This document shows, in pieces, positions 20,662 to 30,564 of a stretch of DNA of 64,000 bases. The notes under the pieces are model-generated. The model saw only the letters and a program-made list of their open reading frames with translations, was not told the origin of the DNA and made no database searches. A program made the translations under genes and the position numbers. Source of the DNA: Synechococcus sp. CCY 9618 (GTDB lineage Bacteria > Cyanobacteriota > Cyanobacteriia > PCC-6307 > Cyanobiaceae); assembly GCF_019038415.1 (NCBI RefSeq), contig NZ_JAFKRG010000009.1:124001-188000 (forward strand), given 5' to 3'. Position 1 is the first letter of the stretch, and every line of letters starts with the position of its first letter.

Positions 20662-22830
20662 TCACCCATTCCTTCGGCTTGCTCTTCGGGTGCGTGGCGG
20701 TGGCCCTTCCGCGTCCTGCCGCCGCCTGCGCACCCGAGCGATCAGGACGGCCCCGGTGAACCCGGCCGCCTGCAGTGCCGCCAGGGCGGCCGGCGCTCGC
20801 TCCGCCGGCAGGGCCGCCAGCAGCGGCCCGCAGGTCTGGGGGTCGATCAGCAGCCCCCGCAGCGCGGCCTCCCGGGCGTTGTTGCCCGCGGCCCCCTGCA
20901 GCCGCACCGGCCCCTCCAGCAGGGCCAGGGCGGTGGCGTTGGCCGGGGCCAGGCTGCTGGCGAACCCCTGCCCCAGCAGGTCCAGGGCGCCGGGGTGCGC
21001 GGGAACGGCGGCACCGTCGAGCACCACGTCCAGGTCCCCGGGACCGGCGGCGAGCATCTCCCCCAGGTGGCCCAGCAGGCCGAAGCCGGTCACGTCGGTG
21101 CAGACACCGCAGCCGTGGGCCCCCAGCAGATCCACCAGGGGCGCCTGGGACTGCTGCAGCGTTTCGAGCACCGCCTCGATCCACTCGGGGGCGGCGGCGC
21201 CGGCCATGGCCGCGGCGAACAGCACGCCGCTGCCGAGGGGCCTGCTCAGCACCAGCACATCGCCGTCTTGCAGGGGGCCCTTGCGCCAGTGGCCGGCCGG
21301 GGCCACCCGCCCGTTCACGGTCAGGGCCAGGGCCAGGCCCGCCCCGTCGCGGCCCTCCAGGGTGTGGCCGCCGACCAGGGCCGCCCCCAGGGGCTCCAGC
21401 ACCGACTGCACACCGGCCAGGGTCTGCAGCAGCAGCTCCTCCTGGAGCTCCGCGCCGGCTTCCGGCACCGTCACCAGGGCCTGCACGCTCTCCACCGCCG
21501 CGCCGCTGGCCCACAGGTCGCTGCAGGCGTGCAGGGTGGTGAGGCGGCCGTTCAGCCAGGGGTCATCCACCAGGGCCGGGAAGCCGTCCACGCTCTGCAG
21601 CAGCAGATCACCCCCGGCGCTGAGGCCCACCGGGGCGGCATCGTCCGCCAGCGGCGCGAGGCCATCCGGGGCGAGCCGGGCCAGGGCGGCATGCAAGGGG
21701 GCGGCGCCCAGCTTGGCGGCGCAGCCCCGACAGGCCATGGCGGCCGGGGCCATCGGCCGCAGCTGGGTGAAGCGGGCCATGAAGGCCCGATCGATGCGCT
21801 GTTTCCAGGCCCAGATCCAGCCGGCGGGCCCCAGGGCCAGCGGGCCGAAGAAGGCCAGGGCCCGGGGGCCGCCGGGGTGCCAGCCACCGTCGCCCAGCAG
21901 CTGCAGGGCGCGGGGCTGGGGCCGCCAGGACCGCAGGGGCCGCGGCGGCTCGGCCAGGCAGCGGCGCAGGTTTTCCGCAAGCACCGGCGCCGCCCGCACG
22001 GCCCAGACTCCTGAGGGGGGCCGAGGATCGTCGGCGATCAGGCCGCAGTCGCCGGCGGCGAACAGATCCCGATGGCCGATCACCTCCAGGCTGGGCTGGG
22101 TCAGCACCCGGCCGCTCTCCGGCTGCACCGGCAGGCCGGCGGCCGCCAGCCAGGCGGGCGCGCGGCTGCCGGTGCAGGCCAGATCGGCACGGGCTCCGGC
22201 CGGGGCCTGGCGCTGGATGGGGATGCCGGCCTGGGCCAGCAGCTGTTCCCCGGCCCGGTTCGCCGCCGCCGAGCCCAGGTGCAGCGTTTCGCCCCGCAAC
22301 AGCAGGCGGCAGGCCAGCCCCCGGGCCCGGAAGGCCAGGGCCAGCTCCACGGCGGCGGCGCCACCGCCCCGGATCACCAGCGGTTCGCCGGCGTGGCGCC
22401 GCTCCGCCCAGGCCAGGAAGGGCTCCAGGGGCTTCACCGCCATCGCCTCCCCAGGCGCCATCGGCTCCGGCATGGCGGTGACGGCACCCACATCGAGGCT
22501 GAGCCGGTCGAAGCGCAGGGGCGGCCGGCCTGCCAGGTGCAGCTCCCGGCCCGCCGGGTCGAGCCCGGTGATCTCCGCCTGCAGGAAGGCGACGCCGGCC
22601 AGGCCGCAGAGGCGGCGTAGGTCGATGGCGGCGGCCTCGCGGGGCTCGAGCCCCGCCACCACCGCCGGCAGCAGGCCCGAGTAGAGGGCGGTGCCGTGGC
22701 GGTTCACCAGACTGATGCGGGTGTTCGCGGGCCTGGAGGCCGGCCGCATCAGCCAGCGCCGCAGCACCAGCACGTGGCTGTGGCCGCCCCCGGCCAGCAC
22801 CAGCTGGTGCCGCTGCGCCGCGGTTCTCAT
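20662..22830 (-). CDS. selD: Selenide, water dikinase fused to an N-terminal FAD/NAD(P) oxidoreductase
   Basis: 722 aa. Residues 1 to about 350 form a pyridine-nucleotide-disulfide-oxidoreductase-like flavoprotein: G-G-G-H-S-H at 14-19, a second glycine motif I-R-G-G-G-A-A-A-V-E at 153-162, and F-A-A-G-D-C-G-L-I near 257-265. Residues from about 365 form SelD, with C370 and K373 matching catalytic Cys17 and Lys20 of the E. coli enzyme, then V-D-G-F-P-A-L-V-D-D and H-T-L-E-G-R-D-G. SelD makes selenophosphate from selenide and ATP; the flavoprotein half may reduce the selenium donor, which is inference. It starts inside the stop of the SulP gene (ATGA). It is a Cys, not selenocysteine, form. 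Confidence 0.92.
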   Translation of the reverse strand: MRTAAQRHQLVLAGGGHSHVLVLRRWLMRPASRPANTRISLVNRHGTALYSGLLPAVVAGLEPREAAAIDLRRLCGLAGVAFLQAEITGLDPAGRELHLAGRPPLRFDRLSLDVGAVTAMPEPMAPGEAMAVKPLEPFLAWAERRHAGEPLVIRGGGAAAVELALAFRARGLACRLLLRGETLHLGSAAANRAGEQLLAQAGIPIQRQAPAGARADLACTGSRAPAWLAAAGLPVQPESGRVLTQPSLEVIGHRDLFAAGDCGLIADDPRPPSGVWAVRAAPVLAENLRRCLAEPPRPLRSWRPQPRALQLLGDGGWHPGGPRALAFFGPLALGPAGWIWAWKQRIDRAFMARFTQLRPMAPAAMACRGCAAKLGAAPLHAALARLAPDGLAPLADDAAPVGLSAGGDLLLQSVDGFPALVDDPWLNGRLTTLHACSDLWASGAAVESVQALVTVPEAGAELQEELLLQTLAGVQSVLEPLGAALVGGHTLEGRDGAGLALALTVNGRVAPAGHWRKGPLQDGDVLVLSRPLGSGVLFAAAMAGAAAPEWIEAVLETLQQSQAPLVDLLGAHGCGVCTDVTGFGLLGHLGEMLAAGPGDLDVVLDGAAVPAHPGALDLLGQGFASSLAPANATALALLEGPVRLQGAAGNNAREAALRGLLIDPQTCGPLLAALPAERAPAALAALQAAGFTGAVLIARVRRRRQDAEGPPPRTRRASRRNG

Positions 22831-24536
22831 GGGGTAGGCGCCGGCGTCGCCCGCCCCTGGAAGGCCGCGATCGCCGTCGGCAGGGTGGGAAAGAACAGCC
22901 GCTCCCCGATCCGCTCCACCAGGCCGGCCCGCTCCAGCTGGGCGTAGAGGTCCTGCTTGACCCGCACCATCCCGAAGGTGATGCCACGGGCCGTCAGCTC
23001 CCGGTGCAGTTCCTCGAGCACGTCGGCGGCAGTGATGTCGATCTCCACGATCGCTTCGGCGTTGAGCACGAACCAGGCCACCGGCTGGGGCTCGGCGGCC
23101 ACCGTTTCCAGCACCCGCTGGCGGAAGTGCTCGGCGTTGGCGAAGCACAGGGGAGCATCGAAGCGGAACAGCACCAGGCCCGGGATGGTGCGGGCTCCTT
23201 CCCAGTCGTTCACGTCGTGCAGCCCGGCCAGCTGGGGCACCCTGCCCATCACCGCGTCATGGGGCCGCACCAGCCGGGCGAACAGATCGATCACCGACAG
23301 CCCCACCGCCACGCCCACCCCCGTCAGCAGGTCGGTGAGCAGCACCCCGGCCAGGGTGATCAGGGCCAGCCGGAACTCGCTGGGCCGGAAGCGGTGCAGC
23401 CGCAGGAATTCCGGGATGTCGATCAGCCGCAGGGCGGCGTAGATCACGATCGCCCCCAGGGCCGCAGTGGGAAACAGGGCCAGCAGCGGCCGCAGCCACA
23501 GCAGCACCGCCAGCACGACGACGAAGGCCGTCAGGGAGAAGAGCTGGGAGCGGCTGCCGAGGGAGTCGCCGATGGCGGTGCGGCTGCCGCTGCTGCTCAC
23601 CGGAAAGCCCTGCAGCAGCCCGGTGCCGAGGTTCAGGGCCCCCAGGGCCAGCAGCTCCCGGTTGGCGTCGATGCGGTAGCCGCCCCGGGCGGCGAAGGCC
23701 CGGGCTGTGAGCACGTTGTCGGAGTAGCCCACCAGGGCGATGCCCACCGCCGCCGTGAGCAGATAGCGGAGCTGGGGGGGCGCGGGGGCCTGGGGCAGCG
23801 TCGGGTGGGGCAGACCGGCCGGAATGGCGCCGATCACAGCCACGCCCCGCTGCTCCAGATGGGCCGCCGCCACCACCGCCATGGCCAGCAGCACCGCCAG
23901 CAGGGGGCCCGGGGCCCGGGGGAAGCGGCGCTGCACCAGCAGCAGGAAGGCCAGCACCCCCAGGGCCAGCAGCAGGGTCGGCCCGTGGATCTCCCCCAGC
24001 CGGCCGGCCACTTCGCGCAGCTGACCCGGGATCGAGCTGGCCTCCAGGCTCAGGCCGCAGATCCGCCCCAGCTGGCCGCCGATCATGATCAGGGCCACCC
24101 CGCCCAGGTAGCCCACCAGGATCGGCCGGGAGAGCAGATCGGCCAGGAAGCCCAGCCGGCTCCAGGCCCCGGCACAGCACACCAGTCCCACCAGCAGGGC
24201 CAGCAGGCTGCTGAGGCCGGCATAGGCCACCGGATCCCCCGCCGCCAGCGGCCCGATCGCCGCGGCCGTCATCACCGCCGTGGTGGATTCGGGCCCCACC
24301 GAGAGCTGGGGGGAGGAGCCCAGCAGGGCATAGAGCAGCAGGGGGGGCAGGATCGCCCAGAGGCCGGTGATCGGGGCCAGCCCGGCCACCTCGGCGTAGG
24401 CCATGCACTGGGGCACCAGGTAAGCGGCCACGGTGAGGCCCGCCAGCAGATCGGGCCGCAGCCAGTCCCGCCGGTAGCCCAGCAGTCGCTCCAGGCCAGG
24501 CATCAGCCCCACGAGAACCCGCCGCAGCTCCATCAC
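22827..24536 (-). CDS. SulP-family inorganic anion transporter with STAS domain
   Basis: 569 aa. Hydrophobic core of about 12-14 helices, starting with A-G-L-T-V-A-A-Y-L-V-P-Q-C-M-A-Y-A-E near residue 32 and S-V-G-P-E-S-T-T near residue 80, typical of SulP carriers; a cytoplasmic STAS domain occupies about residues 440-545. SulP proteins carry sulfate, bicarbonate, molybdate or related oxyanions. It overlaps selD by four bases on the same strand, so selenite/selenate or sulfate transport serving selenium metabolism is the attractive inference. It is not like BicA in its first helices. Exact substrate unknown. Confidence 0.85.
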   Translation of the reverse strand: MMELRRVLVGLMPGLERLLGYRRDWLRPDLLAGLTVAAYLVPQCMAYAEVAGLAPITGLWAILPPLLLYALLGSSPQLSVGPESTTAVMTAAAIGPLAAGDPVAYAGLSSLLALLVGLVCCAGAWSRLGFLADLLSRPILVGYLGGVALIMIGGQLGRICGLSLEASSIPGQLREVAGRLGEIHGPTLLLALGVLAFLLLVQRRFPRAPGPLLAVLLAMAVVAAAHLEQRGVAVIGAIPAGLPHPTLPQAPAPPQLRYLLTAAVGIALVGYSDNVLTARAFAARGGYRIDANRELLALGALNLGTGLLQGFPVSSSGSRTAIGDSLGSRSQLFSLTAFVVVLAVLLWLRPLLALFPTAALGAIVIYAALRLIDIPEFLRLHRFRPSEFRLALITLAGVLLTDLLTGVGVAVGLSVIDLFARLVRPHDAVMGRVPQLAGLHDVNDWEGARTIPGLVLFRFDAPLCFANAEHFRQRVLETVAAEPQPVAWFVLNAEAIVEIDITAADVLEELHRELTARGITFGMVRVKQDLYAQLERAGLVERIGERLFFPTLPTAIAAFQGRATPAPTP

Positions 24537-26014: not shown

Positions 26015-27436
26015 TCAGGCTTCCTGGTACACCGACACGTAGACCGTACCTTTTTCCACCAGGGGCAGCAGCTTGTCGCGCAGGTCCTGGTTGTGGAGCC
26101 GCACGCAGCCGAGGGTGGGATGCAGGGGCTGGCGCGGGGCCCAGGCGCCGGGCCAGCCGCAGGCTGTGCCGCCGCCGTGCACCATGATCCCGGAGCGGCC
26201 GAAGCGTCGTTCCTGCATCTCCAGATCTTCGAGATCGAAGCTGTACCAGCCGTAGCTGCAGCGATCAGCCGAGAAGGTGGGGCTGGGATCCTGCTCGTAA
26301 TCCCGGTACACCTTCCTGCCGATGCGGTAGACGCCCGGCGGCGTGTCGGTGGCGTTCTCCTTGTACTGGGTCTCCCGGCCCTGGCCGCGGGCCAGGGCCG
26401 GGACCTCCCAGAGCAGCCGGCCCTCCACGTCGAAGGCCCTGGCGGTCTCGCTGCCGTCGTTGACCACCACATGGGAATCAGCGCCGCTGAAGCCGAAGTC
26501 GTGGGGCGTCCTGCTGGGGCCCACCATGCCGGGCAGCACCGGCGGGCGGTCGCCGGAGGCGGCGGGAGCAGGCACCGCGACGGTCTTCGCGGCCGGAGCC
26601 GCCGACGCCTGCTTGAGCCGCTGTTCCCAGGCCTCGCAGTCCGCCGGACTGGTGATCTCCCGCTCCGCCCGGGCGCAGGCGGCGACGGGTTCCATGCCGG
26701 TCCACACCAGCCCTTCGGCCCGGCGGCGGCGACCCAGGCCCACCTCCACCTTCTTGCCGGGATTGCGATACATCATCAGGGCCCCGGGAACGGCCTCCCA
26801 GCGACGCGCGCGCAGGTGGCGATCCAGGGTGTCGTGGTGACCGTCGCCATGGAAGCGGGCACCGTTGTTGTAGGCGAAGCTGCAGAGAGCGGCCCGCTGG
26901 CGATCATCCATCTCCCCCCAGAAGGGGATCGTGGCCTCCAGCACCTTCCAGAACGACTCCCGGCAGTTGTGGGCGTAGAGCGCATCGGCCTGCTCCTGGG
27001 TGATCAAATCCCCCAGCCGGACGGGGGAGCCGTCCTCGTAGAACGTGCTGCCCCAGCCGATCGTGATCGGCTCGCCCCCCGTGAGGGGGTCGGGATAGGC
27101 CTGCAGGCGGCAGCCCTCGTAGTGGTGGTTGAGCTGGGCCACCTCGGGGGGCAGCGGGTCCGGGCCGGGAACGGCGGAGGGCTGCCGCAACCAGGCGTCG
27201 TCGGGAATGCTGAAGCGGTCGGGATTGAAGTAGCGCTGTTCGCCATCCAGCAAGGGCTCCGTGCCGCCGGGGCAGGTGTAGTTGCCCGCCAGTCGCAGGA
27301 TGGCCAGCTCCGCAGCGGCTGCCGGCCGCACCCAGGCCACGGCGATGCGGCTGCCGGAAGCCACGTAGGAATCGGCATCGGCGGCGGCGGGGCTGGGGCT
27401 GAGGCCCGCGTCCTCCCGGGCGGTGATGAAAGGCAT
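26015..27436 (-). CDS. GH24 lysozyme fused to an L,D-transpeptidase (YkuD) domain
   Basis: 473 aa. Residues about 95-250 are a phage-type lysozyme: catalytic triad E107 (Y-E-G-C-R), D116 (A-Y-P-D-P) and T125 (I-T-I-G-W-G), in the T4-lysozyme arrangement. Residues about 320-470 are a YkuD domain with His420 (V-H-G-G-G) and nucleophile Cys444 in P-T-L-G-C-V-R-L; the usual His before Gly-Cys is Leu. One enzyme would cut glycan strands and the other cross-link or anchor peptides in peptidoglycan. There is no clear signal peptide; the N-terminus M-P-F-I-T-A-R is like other cyanobacterial lysozyme-type proteins. The upstream 2-helix membrane protein gene ends 13 bases before it. Confidence 0.85.
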   Translation of the reverse strand: MPFITAREDAGLSPSPAAADADSYVASGSRIAVAWVRPAAAAELAILRLAGNYTCPGGTEPLLDGEQRYFNPDRFSIPDDAWLRQPSAVPGPDPLPPEVAQLNHHYEGCRLQAYPDPLTGGEPITIGWGSTFYEDGSPVRLGDLITQEQADALYAHNCRESFWKVLEATIPFWGEMDDRQRAALCSFAYNNGARFHGDGHHDTLDRHLRARRWEAVPGALMMYRNPGKKVEVGLGRRRRAEGLVWTGMEPVAACARAEREITSPADCEAWEQRLKQASAAPAAKTVAVPAPAASGDRPPVLPGMVGPSRTPHDFGFSGADSHVVVNDGSETARAFDVEGRLLWEVPALARGQGRETQYKENATDTPPGVYRIGRKVYRDYEQDPSPTFSADRCSYGWYSFDLEDLEMQERRFGRSGIMVHGGGTACGWPGAWAPRQPLHPTLGCVRLHNQDLRDKLLPLVEKGTVYVSVYQEA

Positions 27437-27449
27437 CAGCGGCAGCTCA

Positions 27450-27992
27450 TCAGAGGCTTCCCCCCAGCCGGATCCGCTCCAGTGGGCTCAGGGCCTGGGC
27501 CGGCGCGGCGACGGGGGCGGCCGGGGTCACCTGGATCGGGGTGCGGCTGCGGCCGATCTCGGCCCGCAGTCGCTCCAGCTCTTGCCGCAGCTGGCCCAGG
27601 CGGGGATCCTCCGCCGGGGAGCTGGCCTGGGTGGGGGCCTCGGCCGCTGGGCCGCCGCCGGAGCCCAGAAAAAGCTCCCGCAGGCTGCTGCCCTTGAGGC
27701 CGCCGAGCCGCTGCTCGGCGAATTTCTGCACCACCTTGGGGGCGAAGGCCGCCAGCAGGAAGGCGAAGGTGAGGGTGAGGCCGGTCTCGTCCCGGGGCGG
27801 ATAGGTGAGAGTCGCCTGACCGCCGGCATCCCGGCTCACGATCGGCGCGCTCCTTGCCATGGTGATGGCCCCGAAGGCGATCGAGGCCAGCAGGGCCAGT
27901 ACGCACATCAGCCGCATGGCGGAACGGTTGCCCGGCGATTCCTCCAGGAACCCGGTCGTGGGACCGGCGGCGGCGCGGACAGGGGCGTTCAT
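27450..27992 (-). CDS. Membrane protein of unknown function
   Basis: 180 aa from ATG 27992 (an in-frame ATG at 28025 also exists). One hydrophobic helix near residues 28-48 and another near 72-90, followed by a soluble Pro/Ala/Glu-rich C-terminal tail with a predicted coiled stretch (R-L-G-Q-L-R-Q-E-L-E-R-L-R-A-E-I). Its stop is 13 bases before the lysozyme-transpeptidase start on the same strand, so co-transcription and a role in exporting or localising that enzyme is possible, but nothing in the sequence proves a holin. No family recognised. Confidence 0.6.
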   Translation of the reverse strand: MNAPVRAAAGPTTGFLEESPGNRSAMRLMCVLALLASIAFGAITMARSAPIVSRDAGGQATLTYPPRDETGLTLTFAFLLAAFAPKVVQKFAEQRLGGLKGSSLRELFLGSGGGPAAEAPTQASSPAEDPRLGQLRQELERLRAEIGRSRTPIQVTPAAPVAAPAQALSPLERIRLGGSL

Positions 27993-28123
27993 GGGGACAG
28001 CGCGGGACTCAGGCCAGGCCGGCATCGCTCGGGCGAAGAGCAGGTGCCAGCGGTCCCCATTCTGAAAGGACCGGTTGCCGGCGCCGTCGACCCGGCACCT
28101 TCTTCACCATCAGGTCTTCACCC

Positions 28124-28272: not shown

Positions 28273-30564
<2,292 letters not shown>

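Follow-up and report, generated by a model that had tools for sequence, protein, structure and literature searches.

What use would a cyanobacterium make of a protein that joins a phage-type lysozyme to a YkuD domain, and where would such a gene have come from? Two-activity endolysins usually combine glycan cutting with amidases or endopeptidases. The gene considered here lies on the chromosome of Synechococcus sp. CCY 9618, in a stretch of 64,000 nucleotides that is called the window below. We consider it probable that the gene belongs to a host-resident, phage-derived operon of the lysis type, in which a lysin without signal peptide is encoded along with its membrane partner. As far as sequences can tell, this reading builds on the fusion with its intact catalytic residues, the gene pair, a single locus kept within one clade, purifying selection and a tie between YkuD and muramidases in viruses.

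The fusion protein and its two domains

The features of the fusion gene are as follows.
26015..27436, minus strand: GH24-YkuD fusion protein, 473 aa (ORF call, Pfam, orthologue searches and alignment)
27152..27436, minus strand: N-terminal module, residues 1-95, common to the variant proteins of genomes G040 and G025
26714..27124, minus strand: GH24 muramidase domain, residues 105-241 (PF00959; catalytic E107, D116, T125)
26018..26536, minus strand: YkuD domain, residues 301-473 (Pfam match, fold)
26473..26045, minus strand: YkuD Pfam match, residues 322-464 (PF03734)
26179..26177 and 26107..26105, minus strand: codons of YkuD H420 and C444

The reading frame begins with ATG, holds no internal stop and has no earlier in-frame ATG, GTG or TTG. 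A preliminary description of the sequence had placed a lysozyme and a YkuD domain within one protein, and both Pfam matches exceed their curated cut-offs (PF00959 Phage_lysozyme, E 5.4e-21, 75.7 bits against 22.3; PF03734 YkuD, E 1.7e-9, 38.8 bits against 23.4). PHROG endolysin families also match the fusion, e.g. phrog_7 at E 1.2e-32. The catalytic residues that had been named, C444 together with E107, D116 and T125, which we take to be the Glu/Asp/Thr catalytic triad of GH24, are unchanged across 12/12 aligned orthologues, as is H420. Residues 1-95 matched no Pfam family (E up to 10) and nothing in phages (E up to 1), the latter counting against a phage-derived lysis operon.

In a panel of 99 genomes, 42 of them from the genus of the source, 43 gave some match to the fusion. 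The full-length, unbroken fusion was found in 14, all of the source genus and including its own genome, with 81–84% identity to the 13 other carriers. A second collection, overlapping in part with the genomes of this panel, yielded 12 loci from Cyanobium, Synechococcus, Aphanothece and a strain labelled Microcystis elabens; 11 are full length, and the twelfth (L042) matches the GH24 part only. It had been considered that a sequence error might have created a false fusion of two adjacent genes. This is ruled out by the identical ORF layout in the 14 genomes of the panel and in 11 of the 12 loci of the second collection, and since the full-length ORF recurs in 14 of the 42 genomes of the genus, the GH24-YkuD fusion is confirmed as genuine.

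A Kyte-Doolittle scan gave no hydrophobic peak in the fusion protein, and neither a signal peptide nor a membrane helix was seen, in line with what the preliminary description had stated. Its guess that export needs another route we judge to be right, the mode of export proposed below being one that we infer. The genome contains two further full-length YkuD matches and one fragment, and one of these other YkuD proteins, unlike the fusion, begins with a hydrophobic leader (read by eye).

Structure prediction had been suggested as a check of both domains. Because the model of the whole fusion reached a pLDDT of 75.7 and a pTM of 0.47, its domain arrangement is unreliable. In a fold search with this model, the GH24 part aligned to 9kbq with Z 19.2 (rmsd 1.9, 147 residues aligned). 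VIA-align with the whole model listed lysozyme folds only, and the YkuD domain was therefore folded alone (pLDDT 91.9, pTM 0.89); a fold search was used for it because no solved relative was found by sequence profile at E 0.01. The matches were Pgp2 (Z 13.6), Csd6 (13.4), B. subtilis YkuD (13.0), Bd1075 (12.9) and Tlde1a (11.9), where differences in Z under 1 are ties, and mycobacterial enzymes followed at about 10–11. The prediction bears out both domains, and the YkuD fold of the C-terminal one is well supported by its model. Assignment of the domain to the Tlde1 family was rejected, a single noise match (E 0.16, on locus L140) being all that was obtained.

The chemistry of the YkuD domain was considered by comparing the window sequence with 54 viral ones. 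Equivalents of H420 and C444 are present in 55/55 sequences, and all 55 carry an Arg two residues after the catalytic Cys (Arg446 in the window), as described for most L,D-transpeptidases in the available part of PMC8938487. The marks described for L,D-carboxypeptidases are a Trp two residues before the catalytic His and Ala or Val at Cys+2 (PMC10653827, PMC4599014, PMC8938487). By sequence position, 54/55 have Met, not Trp, at His-2. Because of this Met and the Arg at Cys+2, the domain was not filed with Csd6, Pgp2 and Bd1075, which are described as L,D-carboxypeptidases (PMC10653827, PMC8938487); for Tlde1a both carboxypeptidase and exchange activity are reported (PMC9638812). The preliminary description had this domain form or exchange peptide cross-links, which may hold: the modelled fold and Arg446 would fit a transpeptidase, yet of the nearest solved structures three belong to L,D-carboxypeptidases. 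The spacing between His and Cys is 23 residues, and all 55 sequences read H-G-X22-C with two invariant Trp inside, which is longer by three than the published H(S/G/D)X14-19C (PMC4599014, as excerpted). We therefore treat the domain as a divergent YkuD-fold subfamily.

The chromosomal locus and its variants

The surroundings of the fusion gene comprise the following features.
27450..27992, minus strand: membrane protein with two helices and a charged C-terminal part ("TM191"), 13 nt before the fusion
27453..27491, minus strand: conserved C-terminal tail of the membrane protein (LSPLERIRLGGSL), resembling the ends of the G040 and G025 membrane proteins
28342..30564, plus strand: katG-type peroxidase, divergent neighbour, locus flank outside the system (Pfam, locus comparison)
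22827..24536, minus strand: SulP-type transporter, locus flank outside the system (Pfam, locus comparison)

The name TM191 comes from the longest ORF, 28025..27450, the ORF tool setting the start at 28025. The gene order katG, membrane gene, fusion, sulP is found at one chromosomal locus. In all 11 named loci of full length the fusion has the membrane gene before it and sulP after it; katG is divergent in 10 (the contig of L033 is without katG), and in seven a cation exchanger lies between fusion and sulP. Among the 99 genomes the membrane gene is present in exactly the 14 that carry the fusion. A hydropathy scan of the product of 27450-27992 gave two hydrophobic peaks, which agrees with the two-helix membrane protein noticed earlier. 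Membrane helices beside a lysin gene are what is looked for in a holin, and the two peaks and the adjacency in 11/11 named full-length loci conform to this. Two results count against the lysis reading: the gene matched no Pfam, PHROG or NCBIfam family, and so no holin family, and nothing alike was found in phages.

The four neighbours scanned with Pfam are of host families, a katG-type peroxidase on one side and the cation exchanger, sulP and a selD-type ORF on the other, with no phage gene among them. The window ORF at 20662-23148 combines AIR-synthase-type domains with a pyridine nucleotide-disulphide oxidoreductase match, a selD-like fusion. An endolysin is encoded by a phage or prophage; the present gene sits at a conserved chromosomal locus among host-family neighbours, and for this reason we call it phage-derived and not a phage gene. 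Among plasmids, 23 records matched, none with 80% of the query covered.

Within the fusion, dN/dS (median of 66 pairs per segment) came to 0.12 in GH24, 0.16 in YkuD, 0.23 at the N-terminus and 0.32 across the linker. The membrane partner, with 45 pairs from 10 of the 12 loci (L036 and L038 being left out), gave medians of 0.29 for its membrane part, 0.60 for the middle and 0.18 for the final 26 residues. By these ratios the fusion locus is under purifying selection.

Two genomes, G040 and G025, carry katG and sulP of the window type (84–88%), and between them a protein of 619/621 aa whose N-terminal module is 55–56% and whose GH24 domain is 66–68% identical to that of the window. In place of YkuD, the G040 protein has a PG_binding_1 stretch (22.8 bits when the protein is scanned whole and 24 for the part alone, at a cut-off of 23), together with a region that matches both phrog_3000 and an endolysin PHROG. 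The upstream gene encodes a 473-aa protein unrelated to the membrane partner of the window, with four hydrophobic peaks in G040. These family and hydropathy scans were made on the G040 proteins, and the G025 counterparts were read by eye. Directly after the new stop, G040 retains a piece of the YkuD tail, 36 residues long (64% identity, E 1.4e-9), which we read as a likely fossil; no such remnant was seen in G025. In a tree of katG and sulP, from which L033 was left out for its missing katG, G040 and G025 fall within a nine-member group (100/99) whose seven other members bear the fusion. The nested position and the YkuD tail together would most simply make the YkuD form ancestral at the locus and later replaced in G040 and G025. 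The two unrelated membrane proteins share a C-terminal ending of the pattern PLxxIxxxGxL, which may be a docking tail or the edge of a recombination.

An ordinary host autolysin for growth or division, with parts borrowed from phages long ago and a membrane protein that is merely a wall anchor, would also account for the purifying selection and for a single chromosomal locus that is flanked on either side by host genes, with no phage genes among the four neighbours scanned. We regard it as unlikely, given that the fusion occurs in just a third of the genomes of the genus, that both the domain and the membrane partner are exchangeable, as in G040 and G025, and that the protein is without a visible signal peptide where another YkuD protein of the same genome has a leader.

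Relatives in phages and viral contigs

The preferred reading, a phage-derived lysis operon, leads to the question of where related parts occur in viruses. Of 50,697 phage records, 303 held some match to the fusion; 79 of these go by the name Synechococcus phage and 10 by that of cyanophage, and the 20 best phage matches listed are Synechococcus phages throughout. S-CRM01 encodes GH24 and YkuD in the domain order of the fusion (52.5% over 80% of the query), on two overlapping ORFs, the last part of the lysozyme domain standing at the head of the second. In other viruses the genes are separate, or GH73 or GH19 is fused to YkuD, as in the GH73-YkuD protein of S-CBS4 and the YkuD-GH19 protein of B23, whose GH19 is under the Pfam cut-off yet matches PHROG endolysins. 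An in-frame GH24-YkuD ORF was not found in a virus, which counts against the phage-derived lysis reading. Scanning viral contigs with the orthologue alignment gave 35 loci, chiefly for the GH24 part, at 26–45%. In S-CRM01 (L044, 3821-5130) the lysozyme domain stretches across the two overlapping ORFs, the second running into YkuD, by error or in reality.

Relatives of the domains also occur elsewhere in cellular genomes. A 1185-aa protein of G025:C9 (L049, 7937-11494) holds a GH24 domain 79% identical to that of the window, between an unassigned N-terminal region and an FGE-sulfatase domain, and looks like a second host use of the same lysozyme. In other genomes of the genus GH24 is fused to a Peptidase_C39-like domain (L052, 9168-10562; L062, 8677-9990, where C39 only just reaches its cut-off), which gives this lysozyme a further second partner. 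A YkuD copy in G012 is joined to a region that has a match to an endolysin PHROG and better ones to two PHROGs of unknown function, and a tail-sheath gene lies on the same contig.

It is very improbable that the locus is a lysis module by which a phage-tail-like particle or a gene transfer agent, with its genes at another place in the genome, would be released. A gene-transfer-agent endolysin model does match the lysozyme part weakly, at 56.1 of 315 bits and far below its cut-off. Phage_sheath_1, however, matched in 3/14 carriers (G012, G014, G026) and not in the genome studied, and Phage_portal, one portal family in drafts that can miss genes, in 0/42 genomes; together these lend the release of tail-like particles little support.

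A profile search of IMG/VR returned 417 YkuD stretches, of which the best 80 were kept, and a second query added 62 loci; the viral counts thus describe a sample chosen by likeness to the window query. With identical YkuD sequences counted once, 80 ORFs reduce to 54 and 139 loci to 78. A muramidase-type domain (GH24, GH73 or GH19) is fused to YkuD or lies within 0.75 kb in 64/78 distinct loci, the close-spacing class of this count being fused or 150 nt or less. The nearest type is GH73 in 29, GH24 in 20, a distant GH24 type in 7 and GH19 in 8, always on the same strand as YkuD. In loci of at least 10 kb, not made distinct, the pairing holds for 34/39 YkuD genes against 13/528 other ORFs, the YkuD and muramidase genes themselves being excluded from the latter. 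No muramidase was obtained in 14/78 loci, three of which had flanks of some 10 kb to one side or both; this counts against the lysis reading.

In 8/54 distinct viral ORFs a small one-helix membrane-like ORF overlaps the YkuD start by 4 nt (hydropathy scans covered two of the eight). An XhlA-type holin was rejected for these small ORFs, the matches being at noise level only. Several contigs with such a small ORF over the YkuD start had shown no muramidase, which raised the idea that YkuD is the only lysin of some viruses. This was likewise rejected for the seven distinct loci of this type with wider flanks, because some 0.7 kb downstream they have a GH24 gene of a more distant type. The viral contigs L160 (7362-9304), L163 and L168 carry, in this order, a small membrane-like ORF, YkuD, a further ORF and a distant GH24 gene.

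The domain might instead strengthen or seal the wall by new 3-3 cross-links, the viral copies protecting the infected cell or delaying lysis. The transpeptidase-type Arg at Cys+2 in 55/55 sequences would suit this, and cross-linking is described as a common role of the YkuD fold in bacteria in the accessible text of a review (PMC12729407). We hold this to be quite unlikely, in view of the fusion or tight pairing of YkuD with three types of glycan-cutting domain and of the membrane-like ORFs that overlap its start.

At E 1e-25, cellular members of the YkuD subfamily were found in 2/292 genomes drawn from the phylum, both of the source genus. Judged by these searches, the domain is a member of a divergent subfamily that is mainly viral, with the source genus in addition. 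In a quick, midpoint-rooted YkuD tree of 97 rows, the 12 chromosomal fusions group as a single clade (SH-aLRT 99), which S-CRM01 and two viral contigs join with a support of 85. Transfer from phage to host would be the direction suggested, as far as the midpoint root and a support of 85 carry it. Kinship with phages, the constant locus, the strict tie to the membrane gene and the viral pairing of YkuD with muramidases are points that the preliminary description did not have.

A proposed lysis-type operon compared with known systems

In the operon that we propose, the membrane protein would let the lysin reach the periplasm, either acting in the manner of a holin or serving as a docking partner. 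In the periplasm the GH24 domain would cut glycan strands, and YkuD, through a thioester at Cys444, would attack the mDAP-D-Ala bond of stem peptides and then exchange, hydrolyse or re-link the stem. Wall cutting and peptide editing would thus occur at the same spot; that both domains act on the same wall is most likely. The cellular use, the least certain step, may be controlled release, wall opening or self-lysis. The contrast with the leader of the other YkuD protein and the strict partnership with the membrane gene would fit export as in phage lysis or type 10 secretion.

More tentatively, and with somewhat less confidence than in the operon itself, we speculate that a muramidase paired with a YkuD-fold editor of peptides is a common lysis module of two chemistries in cyanobacterial viruses, and that freshwater picocyanobacteria captured this module as a permanent operon, its second domain and membrane partner exchanged in place, for programmed lysis or a secretion resembling type 10. 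YkuD as a rare lytic domain of phages is already in print (PMC8310338, PMC13284279, PMC5017753, in the parts available), and the PhaLP table, as excerpted, has 10 entries for YkuD against 1834 for GH24. In the available portions of the open-licence literature we found no report of a muramidase-YkuD pairing in cyanobacterial viruses, or of a domesticated copy. The repeated tie of a muramidase to an enzyme of L,D-transpeptidase fold suggests that peptide editing helps these viruses to open their hosts, and points to a route through cyanobacterial cell walls that has seen little study. The chromosomal copy, kept by a clade and with modules exchanged in place, would be a natural record of a host re-tooling a phage lysis module.

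Among known proteins, the putative lysin of S-PM2 and g113 of S-CRM01 have GH24 domains about 50–53% identical to that of the fusion and likewise no visible signal peptide; they differ in being without an in-frame YkuD, in having another N-terminal module and in that the window gene is chromosomal. The YkuD domains of S-CBS4 gp063, B23 gp319 and S-CRM01 g112 are 61–63% identical and joined to or beside a glycan-cutting domain. Their partners are, however, GH73, GH19-like or a split GH24, and they are viral whereas the fusion is chromosomal. Pgp2, Csd6, Bd1075 and Tlde1a are among the best solved folds for the YkuD domain (Z 11.9–13.6), but the window domain shares 12–21% identity with them, is without the carboxypeptidase-type residues or an NTF2-like domain, and matches B. 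subtilis YkuD in a tie with them. By analogy, the nearest working precedent for coupling a muramidase to a YkuD enzyme would be TtsA, a muramidase that recognises peptidoglycan edited by the L,D-transpeptidase YcbB (PMC6996933, available text). TtsA-YcbB and type 10 secretion resemble the fusion in outline, with a muramidase coupled to an L,D-transpeptidase and a holin-like partner in such systems, whereas in the window both enzyme domains lie on a single polypeptide.
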